A DNA stretch of 41,848 bases from Verrucomicrobiota bacterium (GTDB taxonomy: Bacteria; Verrucomicrobiota; Verrucomicrobiia; Limisphaerales; JACQFS01): assembly GCA_016199935.1 (NCBI GenBank), contig JACQFS010000063.1:1-41848 (forward strand). Direction: 5' to 3'. The notes below the pieces were generated by a model. That model searched no databases, was not told the origin of the DNA, and saw only the letters and a list, made by a program, of their open reading frames with translations. The number at the start of each line of letters is the position of its first letter. The stretch's first letter is position 1. This document shows, in pieces, positions 15,262-20,623 of this stretch. The translations under genes and the position numbers were made by a program.

Positions 15262-16500
15262 ATGCACTCGGAAAAACCCCCGGGCCGCGGCGAGGAGCCG
15301 CGAGCGGAACGCCAGTTGAACCACCTCAAGGAATTTCATCCCGCCGGCCGCGGCCCATGGGCGCACGTGCCGGACGCTGAGTGGAACGATTGGCGCTGGC
15401 AGCTCCGCAACCGCGTCACCACGCCGGAGCGTTTGCGCGAGTTGATGCCCACGCTCACCGCGGACGAGTCCGACGGCCTCCGCCTCGCCGAGAACAAGCT
15501 TGCGCTGGCGATCACGCCGCAGTTCTTCAACCTCATTGACCAGTCGGACGATCACTGTCCGATCCGCTGGCAGGTCATCCCGCGCAGCGGCGAGGGCGAC
15601 CTCGCGCCGTGGGAACTCACCGACCCGGTGGGCGAGGACTCGCACTCGCCGGTGCCGGGGCTCGTGCATCGGTATCCCGACCGCGTGCTCTTTCTCGTCA
15701 CGGATCGTTGCGCGGCCTACTGCCGTTATTGCACGCGCTCGCGACTGGTCAGCAACGCCAGCGGCTACGATTTTCATCCCGAGTTCGACCGGCAGATCGC
15801 CTACATCGAGCAGCACACGGAAATCCGCGACGTGCTCCTGAGCGGCGGCGACCCGCTGCTGTTCTCGGACGAGAAGCTCGAATATCTCCTCGCCCGCCTG
15901 CGCGCCATCAAGCACGTCGAGTTCATTCGCATCGGCACGCGCATCCCGGTCTTCCTGCCGCAGCGCGTCACGCCCGAGCTGTGCGCGATGTTGAAACAGT
16001 TTCACCCGCTCTTCATCAGCATCCACGCCAACCACCCGCGCGAACTCACCACCGAAGTCCGCGACGCCCTCGGCCGCCTCGCCGACGCCGGCATCCCGCT
16101 CGGCAACCAGTCCGTGCTGCTCAAGCACGTCAACGACGACGCGACCGTGATGAAGGCGCTCGTGCAGAAACTCCTCATGTGCCGCGTGCGTCCCTATTAC
16201 ATCTACCAGTGCGATCTCATCGCCGGCTCCGCGCACCTGCGCACGAGCGTGCGACGCGGGCTGGAGATCATGAAATCGCTGCGCGGCCACACGACCGGCT
16301 ACGCGGTGCCGCAGTATGTGATCGATGCGCCCGGCGGCGGCGGCAAGGTGCCGGTGAATCCCGACTACGTCCTGAGCCGCAACGCCGACCGCGTGGTCAT
16401 CCGCAACTTCGAGGGCAAGGTCTTCGAGTATCCCGAGGCGCGCGACGGCCGGCCGCTGTTCAAGCCCACCGAGGACTTCATGGCGCCCGAGTTGGTCTGA
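15262..16500 (+). CDS. kamA: KamA-family radical SAM aminomutase (lysine 2,3-aminomutase type)
   Basis: A 412-residue PLP- and SAM-dependent enzyme. The cluster motif is CAAYCRYC (C150, C154, C157) preceded by LFLVTDRC; LLSGGDPLL follows, and DAPGGGGKVPVNPDY near the end contains the PLP-binding lysine. Length and layout match lysine 2,3-aminomutase (L-lysine to L-beta-lysine). The EF-P-specific EpmB branch is shorter, and no EF-P, epmA or ablB (beta-lysine acetyltransferase) neighbour is present, so the true substrate is uncertain. The ATG at 15262 is directly behind a strong promoter, suggesting a leaderless or nearly leaderless mRNA. nth follows after 6 bp. Confidence 0.9.
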   Translation: MHSEKPPGRGEEPRAERQLNHLKEFHPAGRGPWAHVPDAEWNDWRWQLRNRVTTPERLRELMPTLTADESDGLRLAENKLALAITPQFFNLIDQSDDHCPIRWQVIPRSGEGDLAPWELTDPVGEDSHSPVPGLVHRYPDRVLFLVTDRCAAYCRYCTRSRLVSNASGYDFHPEFDRQIAYIEQHTEIRDVLLSGGDPLLFSDEKLEYLLARLRAIKHVEFIRIGTRIPVFLPQRVTPELCAMLKQFHPLFISIHANHPRELTTEVRDALGRLADAGIPLGNQSVLLKHVNDDATVMKALVQKLLMCRVRPYYIYQCDLIAGSAHLRTSVRRGLEIMKSLRGHTTGYAVPQYVIDAPGGGGKVPVNPDYVLSRNADRVVIRNFEGKVFEYPEARDGRPLFKPTEDFMAPELV

Positions 16501-17623: not shown

Positions 17624-18310
17624 ATGCGCGAGACGTGGCTCCTGCTCGAATCCGGCCCCGGCGCGCCCGCCGACAACATGGCGTGGGACGAGGCGCTGCT
17701 GCTCGGCGCGGAGTCGCTCGGCGCACCGGTGCTGCGCTTCTACGGCTGGACGCAACCGGCGGCGACCTTCGGTTATTTCCAAAAAATTTCCGAAGTCGAA
17801 ACGTGGACGCCACTGCGCCCGCTCATCCGCCGCCCGACCGGCGGCGGGCTCGTGCCGCACGACGCGGACTGGACCTACAACCTCGTCATCCCGCCCGCGC
17901 ACGAGTGGTTCGCGCTGCGCGCGGAGGAAAGCTACCGCCGCCTGCACGAGTGGATTCGCGCGGCCTTCGCGCGCGTGCAGCTCGCGGCCGAACTTGCGCC
18001 GTGTGGCGACAAGCAACTGCCCGGACGCTGCTTCGCGGGCCCGGAGAAGTTTGATCTGACGTGGAGCGGAAATAAAATCGCCGGCGCGGCGCAGCGCCGG
18101 ACGAAGCACGGGATGTTGATCCAGGGCTCGATCCAGCCGGTGCCGCCCGGCGTTGCGCGCGCGGCGTGGGAGGCGGCGATGCGCGCGGAGGCGGAGAAAA
18201 TGTTTGGCGTGAAGTGGGAGCCGCTGAGCGTCACCGACGGACTGCGGGAACAGGCACGGGAACTTTCCACGCAGAAGTATTCGCGCACCGAGTTCAACCG
18301 GCGGCGTTGA
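17624..18310 (+). CDS. Lipoate-protein ligase / octanoyltransferase family protein
   Basis: A 228-residue member of the LplA/LipB/LipM fold. It begins with ADNMAWDEALL, has the acyl-binding RRPTGGGLVPHDADWTYNLV and the lysine motif GNKIAGAAQRRTKHGMLIQGS. The Cys in GRCFAGPEKFDL sits where LipM-type octanoyltransferases keep their nucleophile, so transfer from octanoyl-ACP (LipM-like) is as likely as ATP-dependent lipoate ligation (LplA-like). The C-terminal accessory domain of classical LplA is absent. It acts in the cytosol on E2 or H subunits. It follows crcB by 3 bp, with no lipA in view. Confidence 0.85.
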   Translation: MRETWLLLESGPGAPADNMAWDEALLLGAESLGAPVLRFYGWTQPAATFGYFQKISEVETWTPLRPLIRRPTGGGLVPHDADWTYNLVIPPAHEWFALRAEESYRRLHEWIRAAFARVQLAAELAPCGDKQLPGRCFAGPEKFDLTWSGNKIAGAAQRRTKHGMLIQGSIQPVPPGVARAAWEAAMRAEAEKMFGVKWEPLSVTDGLREQARELSTQKYSRTEFNRRR

Positions 18311-18324
18311 AGCGGGTCGCCGCC

Positions 18325-18723
18325 TCAATTCCCCGTCGCGCGGCGACCGGCCACCGCCTTGACCGCGAGGTAGCTCTGCCACGCGCCCAGCGCGATGGCC
18401 GTCAGGCACAGAGTCCAACTCAGGAATCCCACCGGGCCCGTCGCACTGCGAACGACGTGATAGGCGAGCGCGCAGAGCAGCACGTCGGACATGACGAGCG
18501 TCACGAGCACGGAGCGGTCGAGCAGGCGGATCGCCGGGAGCGCTGCGGCGGCCGCAGACGTGAGTTTGGTGGAGGTCGAGACCTCGCCGTTGGCGCCCTT
18601 GATGAGGACGCGCACGCCGGGAGTCAGCGACGGGTTGGTCGGGTTGGCGGTTCCGGGGTTGGCGGAACCAGGCCGCTGGTCCATGAGTTGATCAAGGCCG
18701 CGGCCGAGAACTGGGTTTGGCAC
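18325..18723 (-). CDS. Two-helix membrane protein of unknown function
   Basis: A 132-residue protein with no recognised family. It opens with MPNPVLGRGLDQLMDQR, similar to the first residues of ParB-like proteins but with no ParB domain behind it. A Pro/Asn/Gly-rich linker follows, then two hydrophobic helices (LVTLVMSDVLLCALAYHVV and GFLSWTLCLTAIALGAW) and a basic tail. Probably an inner-membrane hairpin. It is convergent with the LplA-family gene and separated from the next minus-strand gene by 181 bp holding two palindromes. Confidence 0.7.
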   Translation of the reverse strand: MPNPVLGRGLDQLMDQRPGSANPGTANPTNPSLTPGVRVLIKGANGEVSTSTKLTSAAAAALPAIRLLDRSVLVTLVMSDVLLCALAYHVVRSATGPVGFLSWTLCLTAIALGAWQSYLAVKAVAGRRATGN

Positions 18724-18904: not shown

Positions 18905-19549
18905 TCACGACACCTTCGGCGCGAGCGTGACGCCGAGCCGGTCCACGCCGGCATCGAGCAGCGCCGTGGCCGCGGCGAGCGTGGCGACGTTGGCAAAAAC
19001 TTTCAGGCCAAACTTCGGCCCAACGGCCTCGCGCACGGCCCGCACCACTTCTGGCGAAACTTCGCGCGTGCCGAACACCGCCGAGAGCGTGACGAACTTC
19101 GCCTCCGCCTCGACCGCGAGCCGCGCCGCGGCAATCCACTGCTCGCGGTTCAGCAGCGACGTTTCGAGCAGCACCTTCAGCGGGCGCTCATCGGCCGCCT
19201 CGACGAGGTCGCGGAGTTCGCGCCGTGTGGAGTCGGTGTTGCCCTCCTTGAGCCAGCCGTGATTGGGCACCACTTCGAGCTCGTGCGCGTCGTGGTCCAC
19301 CGCCACCTCCACCTCGTAGCGTTTCACGTCGGCGTCCACCGCGCCGAGCGGGAAGCCGGCGGTGGCGGTGACTTTGATCTCCGTGTCGTCGAGAAAATGC
19401 CGCGCCGCGATGACGTGCGCACCGTTGACGACCACGCCGCCGGCCTGGTTCGCGCGCGCGTCGGCGCAAAGTTTCTGCACGTCGGTTCGCGTCGCGTCGG
19501 CGCGCAGGAGGGTGAGTTCGAGATGCGGAGCGAGTTCGGTGAGGGTCAT
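18905..19549 (-). CDS. DeoC-like aldolase-fold protein lacking the catalytic lysine
   Basis: A 214-residue TIM-barrel protein related to deoxyribose-phosphate aldolase: LTLLRADATRTDVQKLC, VTATAGFPLGA, LKVLLETSLL and FANVAT follow the DeoC order. Key residues differ. The Schiff-base lysine of FVKTSTGF-type motifs is Thr154 (KFVTLSAVFG), the catalytic Asp of EIDMV is Glu92 (HELEVV), and only the second lysine (K183, GLKVFANVAT) is kept. DERA chemistry by the known mechanism is therefore unlikely. It may be a lyase of a related reaction, a regulator, or an inactive relative. It lies downstream of mdh on the same strand behind an inverted repeat. Confidence 0.75.
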   Translation of the reverse strand: MTLTELAPHLELTLLRADATRTDVQKLCADARANQAGGVVVNGAHVIAARHFLDDTEIKVTATAGFPLGAVDADVKRYEVEVAVDHDAHELEVVPNHGWLKEGNTDSTRRELRDLVEAADERPLKVLLETSLLNREQWIAAARLAVEAEAKFVTLSAVFGTREVSPEVVRAVREAVGPKFGLKVFANVATLAAATALLDAGVDRLGVTLAPKVS

Positions 19550-19630: not shown

Positions 19631-20623
19631 TCACTTCGGCAGCAACTCGCTCACGAGCGACTTCTCTTCCTTCAACTCGTTCTCCGTCGCCGTGATTTTC
19701 GCGCGGCTGAACTCGCCCACGGGCAGGCCCTGGACGATCTCCCATTTCTTGCCGTCGGTGCGGATCGGGTAGCTGAACATCAGGCCCTTCTCGATGCCGT
19801 AGCTACCGTCGGAGCAGACGGCCACGCTGAACCAATCGCCCTGCGGCGTGGGCGTGGTGAGCCGGCGCACGGTGTCCACCACGGCGTTGGCCGCGCTCGC
19901 GGCGGAACTGAGGCCGCGCGCCTCGATGATCGCCGCGCCGCGCTTCTGCACGGTCACGATGAAATCTTTTTCCAACCACTCGCGATGGCCGATGACGTCG
20001 GTGACGGGGCGGTTCTGAATTTTCGCGTTGAAGAAATCGGGATACATCGTGGAGCTGTGGTTGCCCCAGATCGCGAGGTTCGTAATCGTCTCGACGGGCA
20101 CGCCGGCTTTCTTCGCGAGCTGCGTGCGCGCGCGGTTTTCATCGAGCGCGGTCATGGCGAAGAACTGCTCGCGCGGCACGCCGGCGGCGCTGTTCATGGC
20201 GATGAGCGAATTGGTGTTGCACGGATTGCCGACGACGAGCGTGCGGACATCCTTCGCGGCGTGGCTGGCGATGGCCTTGCCCTGGCCGGTGAAAATTTTT
20301 CCATTCGCCGTGAGCAGATCCTTGCGCTCCATGCCGGGGCCACGCGGCCGCGCGCCGACGAGCAGTGCCCAGTTGACGCCGCGGAAGCCCTCGCTCAGAT
20401 CACTCGTGGGCACGCAGCCCTTGAGCAGCGGGAACGCGCAGTCCTCGAGTTCCATGACCACGCCGGCGAGCGCCTTGAGCGCCTTCTCGTCGGGGATTTC
20501 GATCAGGTGAAGGATGATGGGTTGGTTCGGCCCGAACATCGCGCCGGAGGCGATGCGGAACAGGAGCGAGTAACCAATCTGGCCGGCGGCACCGGTGACT
20601 GCGACACGGAGGGGGGTGTTCAT
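19631..20623 (-). CDS. mdh: Malate dehydrogenase
   Basis: NAD-dependent TCA-cycle enzyme interconverting malate and oxaloacetate. The 330-residue protein has the Rossmann start [37 protein letters not shown] with the mobile-loop arginines, [13 protein letters not shown], the DENRAR region, and the catalytic His in [15 protein letters not shown]. This is the cytosolic-type (GAAGQI) MDH that is common in Verrucomicrobiota and differs from the LDH-like type. It is transcribed leftward, divergent from the tRNA-Asn locus. Complete and ordinary. Confidence 0.96.

Follow-up and report, generated by a model that had tools for sequence, protein, structure and literature searches.

Why would a bacterium keep a member of the DeoC family that has lost the lysine on which DERA catalysis depends? 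The question is raised by one gene in a stretch of 41,848 nucleotides (hereafter, the window) from a Verrucomicrobiota genome. This gene, an open reading frame read on the minus strand from an ATG at 19549 to 18905, encodes 214 amino acids with no internal stops, and its family membership is clear: it scores 150.5 bits against the TIGR00126 deoC profile (cut-off 117.3), and 13.5 bits, under the cut-off of 23.8, against the Pfam DeoC model (PF01791). Its best relatives in the PDB are DERAs (E 2.7e-33), the closest solved chains being of the short type. An AlphaFold2 model (four sequences; pLDDT 87, pTM 0.83) superimposes on the L. brevis DERA 4xbs with a Z of 31.9 and an rmsd of 1.6 over 209 residues, so that the DERA TIM barrel is predicted to be intact. 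The annotation of the gene would, however, mislead: the protein passes the equivalog cut-off (NCBIfam deoC) without the catalytic lysine, so that an automatic pipeline would list it as a functional aldolase.

A DERA barrel without the DERA active site

Residues were mapped through an alignment that included E. coli K-12 DeoC. According to the available part of PMC8403123, the imine lysine of E. coli DERA is K167, and D102 and K201 take part in proton transfer. In the window protein the position of K167 (strand 6) is held by T154 (codon 19088-19090, minus strand), that of D102, the catalytic aspartate, by E92 (19274-19276, minus) and that of K201 by K183 (19001-19003, minus); further, E. coli K137 corresponds to K125 and D16 to E11. 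Because T154 stands at the place of K167 and E92 at the place of D102, the known DERA mechanism is, as judged by the alignment, closed to this protein: the classical K167 imine cannot form. An earlier note on this DNA, made from the sequence alone, had claimed precisely this substitution of the lysine and of the aspartate, the retention of K183 and of the barrel, and the loss of the known mechanism, and the alignment and the model agree with it on each point. Since all 34 DERAs taken from outside the clade carry Lys at position 154, its loss here is not noise.

The phosphate site is altered as well. A186-N187 (18989-18994, minus) replaces the GG motif (E. coli G204/G205) and V207-T208 (18926-18931, minus) falls at the GTSS motif of short DERAs; both motifs are lost, with ASGG changed to VFAN and GTSS to GVTL. 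The Gly-Gly and Ser motifs are presumably what binds phosphate in DERA. Thus, of the features of an active DERA, the protein has the second lysine, K183, but neither the Schiff-base lysine nor the catalytic Asp nor the phosphate motifs. The short bacterial DERAs of L. brevis (4xbs), T. maritima (3r12) and B. halodurans (6d33) share with the window protein the fold, the length, 33-36% identity, K183 and the GFPxG motif; unlike them, it has no Schiff-base lysine, a Glu instead of the catalytic Asp and neither phosphate motif, and it carries charged residues in helices α3 and α4 that are specific to its own clade. The earlier note had overlooked the loss of the phosphate motifs, the same loss in the two nearest relatives and the existence, in the same order, of many lysine-bearing relatives with identities of up to 52%.

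The lysine is missing from many members of the clade

A first sample comprised 116 genomes of the same order, 102 of which yielded a match; genes of the order's own clade in this set were lysine-less in 24 cases, lysine-bearing in 50 and odd in one. The sample was then enlarged with mostly weak-scoring, deliberately chosen genomes and some others. Duplicates of one gene were removed, and 19 aligned rows were excluded as belonging to other DeoC subfamilies (L081, L146, L084 and L147 by the quick gene tree, L148, L150, L151 and L153 by likeness, and the others by a separate tree). Of the resulting 119 clade proteins, 68 keep both lysines, 49 have no K154 and two have K154 but no K183; owing to the way of sampling, 49/119 overstates the frequency of the lysine-less form and is not a prevalence. 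The two last-mentioned proteins, L066 and L130, are mirror-image losses, with the imine lysine K154 in place and Val at K183. The two nearest relatives of the window protein (62 and 61% identity) are lysine-less too. One gene, L040, which is 62% identical, comes from a metagenome-assembled genome titled Akkermansia muciniphila; the record seems to be the genome G036 of the same order, and the species label looks wrong. Hence the possibility, raised in the earlier note, that only this copy had lost the lysine and was simply decaying is contradicted both by the closest homologues and by the clade at large.

In the lysine-less proteins, position 154 is occupied by nine residue types (S 12, V 7, C 7, A 7, T 6, E 6, G 2, Q 1, N 1; K 0/49), K183 is kept in 45 of the 49, position 92 is acidic in 40 (E 29, D 11) and position 11 in 48, K125 persists in 29, and G187 and S208 are found in 14 and 6 proteins, respectively. 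The question posed earlier, whether Thr154 and K183 are both fixed, thus receives a split answer: K183 nearly is, and Thr154 is not, which implies that no single replacement chemistry is common to the set. Similarly, the Glu92 pointed out in the earlier note is real, but it is not particular to one copy. A second marker of the switch is position 197 (18959-18961, minus), which is Met in 96% of the lysine-bearing members; no lysine-less protein has Met there, and 35 of the 49 have Leu. Matches at E <= 1e-20 are missing from 110 of 320 genomes, so that the gene is dispensable. No viral relatives of the protein were seen in a scan of viral contigs, and tblastn matches in phage and plasmid records all had less than 60% identity.

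The two forms occupy one gene position

The neighbourhood of the gene helps to establish its descent. Directly upstream, on the same strand, lies mdh (19631-20623, minus), of the lactate/malate dehydrogenase family, and an lplA-like lipoate ligase gene (17624-18310, plus) is convergent with the deoC homologue. Among the 68 lysine-bearing loci, 25 have mdh in the same position and 10 have a convergent lplA-like gene downstream; among the 49 lysine-less loci the numbers are 19 and 2, many loci being cut short. Since both forms lie directly downstream of mdh, they are positional orthologues. The window gene has both hallmarks of this mdh-linked clade, namely, the upstream mdh and the signature D-KR-E-E-A-D / RE-RD-EAA. 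The order's mdh-linked lysine-bearing proteins (for instance, L012, L029 and L050) share with it the place beside mdh, the α3/α4 signature and up to 52% identity; with K154, D92, GG and GTSS all in place, they have the appearance of functional DERAs. The earlier view that the mdh neighbour gives no clear pathway is correct as far as the pathway goes, but mdh is informative nonetheless, as the mdh-deoC order in the lysine-bearing loci reveals the orthology. Elsewhere in the vicinity, a 132-aa reading frame downstream of the deoC homologue (18325-18723, minus) has, by eye, a membrane-like stretch; it had no Pfam match and no counterpart in the other loci. A radical-SAM gene resembling lysine-2,3-aminomutase (15262-16500, plus; Radical_SAM and LAM_C) is located near genes for endonuclease III, crcB and the lplA-like protein.

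How many times was the lysine lost? Both forms are mixed in the families f20, f62, f35, f51 and f7 (family codes of the genome collection), and all rows read are lysine-less in f22 (7 rows), f57 (5) and f14 (5). In the quick gene tree, 48 of the 49 lysine-less rows fall inside a set of 49 (support 96), as would be expected of a single ancient lysine-less paralogue; this tree, however, holds long branches, and AU tests, which covered f20 and f7, give better trees when the forms are mixed. Holding the lysine-less and lysine-bearing members together raised the log-likelihood by 34 units (p-AU 0.806) for f20 and by 45 units (p-AU 0.871) for f7. The single-paralogue explanation was accordingly rejected, and several independent losses appear to be the better reading of the trees, since the tests favour joining the two forms within each family. 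The form has to change 7 times on a tree of the adjacent mdh (45 rows) as against 3 times on the larger deoC quick tree of 129 rows. The Mdh encoded in the window is 89% identical to the Mdh of L029 and L046, both neighbours of a lysine-bearing deoC; the respective DeoC proteins are 46% identical. In f20, which holds both forms, a DeoC match with an in-frame TGA (genome G019, contig C78:49878-50288) is possibly a true pseudogene.

A charged patch that outlived the active site

The gene is open and, as judged by codon comparisons, under purifying selection. By NG86, dN/dS lies at 0.10-0.36 for the lysine-less pairs and at 0.07-0.21 for the lysine-bearing ones, 9 of the 10 pairs of each kind being measurable (the tenth is saturated, and several dS values are above 1); in the clade of the window gene it reaches 0.33-0.36, which is higher than in the lysine-bearing pairs. 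The lysine-less clade matches used contain no internal stops. The sequences nevertheless change fast: the median identity of lysine-less pairs is 0.40, and among pairs whose mdh identity is 0.75-0.80, the lysine-bearing ones have a deoC identity of 0.62 and the lysine-less ones of 0.34.

Against this rapid divergence, with only 34% identity left at an equal mdh distance, a fixed patch stands out. In helix α3 (residues 73-85; 19295-19333, minus), which matches the dimer-interface helix of E. coli DERA, the residues D74, R77, E81 and D85 are clade-fixed, as are R110, E111, D114, E117 and A118 in helix α4 (residues 105-118; 19196-19237, minus). Retention among the 49 lysine-less proteins is 48 for D74, 48 for R77, 49 for E81, 47 for D85, 48 for R110, 48 for E111 and 47 for D114 (96-100%); the same seven residues are present in 97-100% of the 68 lysine-bearing orthologues and in 0-26% of the 34 outside DERAs. 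The median retention is 0.96 for 15 clade-specific positions versus 0.60 for 32 pan-DERA positions (Mann-Whitney p 0.012, with thresholds chosen post hoc), four of the 15 (171, 207, 177 and 113) being less well kept; the pan-DERA residues P67, G69, K76, E79, G201 and G206 are kept throughout. Synonymous codons vary at the signature, R77, for example, being encoded by CGC 16, CGT 14, CGG 12 and CGA 6 times. This variation rules out conservation at the DNA level and implies that selection acts on the protein.

Where is this patch located? On helical wheels, positions 74, 77, 81 and 85 of α3 lie on the side to which the hydrophobic moment points in outside DERAs and which is charged in the order clade, and R110, D114 and E117 of α4 face away from the hydrophobic side. 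In E. coli DERA, the α3-equivalent helix lies at the dimer interface, K58 facing D82 and A95C forming a disulfide (according to the available part of PMC4725968). The interface residues D82 and A95 and the helix position L87 map to D72, the clade-fixed D85 and R77, respectively. The helix assignment of the model, the helical wheels and the E. coli literature together suggest that the patch would lie on the outer face of the protein, where mesophilic DERA dimerises.

Binding, new chemistry or decay?

The loss of catalysis, the purifying selection and the fixed patch on α3/α4 are most simply explained together if the window protein belongs to a repeatedly arising pseudo-DERA that is retained for a predicted binding function of this patch; we put the probability of this reading at about 0.48. 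Under this scenario, the gene would be a vertically inherited, mdh-linked deoC of this Verrucomicrobiota order that became a pseudo-DERA. The DeoC of the order clade would have acquired a second role on the α3/α4 face, such as a modified homodimer or the docking of a protein partner, before catalysis was lost; where another intact DeoC covered the aldolase reaction, catalysis could be abandoned while the binding role was retained. The 214-aa protein would then act through α3/α4 binding and not through aldol chemistry, Mdh and an active DeoC paralogue being the candidate partners. In pseudoenzymes generally, to judge from the available part of PMC10211241, a catalytic motif is likewise gone while fold and selection persist. 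A literature search, outside of which most subscription papers lay, returned neither a description of a DERA clade that lacks the lysine nor a DERA pseudoenzyme. As to other DeoC copies, a further TIGR00126 match was tallied by hand in 20 of 24 lysine-less versus 20 of 50 lysine-bearing genomes of the 116-genome set, G050 and the fragmented G018 being excluded (Fisher p 0.0005, uncorrected for kinship and genome size). The lysine of these further matches was checked in some genomes only; the source genome of the window gene has two, on contigs C192 and C62, both lysine-bearing. The paralogues that were read belong to other subfamilies and have no α3/α4 signature.

There are points against this reading. 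A pure surface role need not keep K183, or an acid at positions 92 and 11; the patch could simply tie α3 to α4 through a network of salt bridges; the quick tree alone would suggest fewer losses; the gene is dispensable; and no other DeoC match was seen in 4 of the 24 lysine-less genomes. The kept pocket residues, together with the barrel that is intact in the model, would suit an enzyme with a remodelled pocket in which K183 (strand 7), together with E92 and E11, converts a substrate without phosphate in a new reaction, with K183 perhaps forming the imine. There is a precedent of sorts, as the imine lysine of KDPG aldolase has reportedly been moved by engineering from strand 6 to strand 7. Such an enzyme is, however, unlikely, and less likely than a binding role: with nine residue types at position 154 and K125 in 29 of 49 proteins, the pocket is not commonly constrained, the pan-DERA pocket positions are the very ones lost, and Glu92 would probably pair with K183 and mute it. 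A bolder combination would be a natural relocation of the nucleophile to K183, which would act with E92 and E11 in a new reaction on a carbonyl compound without phosphate, and the docking of a partner by the α3/α4 face; this seems a long shot.

Decay of a single copy was rejected as the main reading in view of the common loss, the lack of stops, the purifying selection and the fixed patch. A slower process, in which the aldolase has become redundant, selection is relaxed and the gene drifts towards loss, would fit the faster divergence of lysine-less DeoC at equal mdh distance, the higher frequency of a further DeoC in lysine-less genomes and the elevated dN/dS in the clade of the window gene; yet it is quite improbable given that no internal stops are seen, that dN/dS is below 0.4 in all measurable pairs, that charged residues stay fixed at 96-100% across proteins with a median identity of 40%, and that the lysine-less state is common to all rows read in f22, f57 and f14. 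The patch might also be purely structural, an order-typical, salt-bridged alternative homodimer, in which the lysine-less proteins would be inactive subunits whose presence stabilises an active DeoC or tunes it. The interface position of the α3-matching helix in E. coli, with the K58-D82 pair and the A95C disulfide (PMC4725968, as far as available), the mapping of A95 to the clade-fixed D85 and the frequent presence of another DeoC would all be compatible with this, but the paralogues of other subfamilies do not carry the signature, so that a mixed dimer through α3/α4 is not obvious, and in 4 of the 24 genomes with the lysine-less form no other DeoC match was seen; we consider such subunits very unlikely.

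Implications

Whatever its role, the protein is a warning case for annotation: it passes TIGR00126, and equivalog models label such lysine-less proteins as working DERAs. If the nucleophile had indeed been relocated, the clade would provide a wild counterpart of the engineered lysine shift mentioned above for KDPG aldolase. If, on the other hand, the binding reading is right, these proteins would represent a clean natural case of a non-catalytic role that outlived catalysis several times, with lysine-bearing and lysine-less orthologues at one gene position as built-in controls; and, as the candidate residues of the hidden role can be named, a few mutants could locate it.
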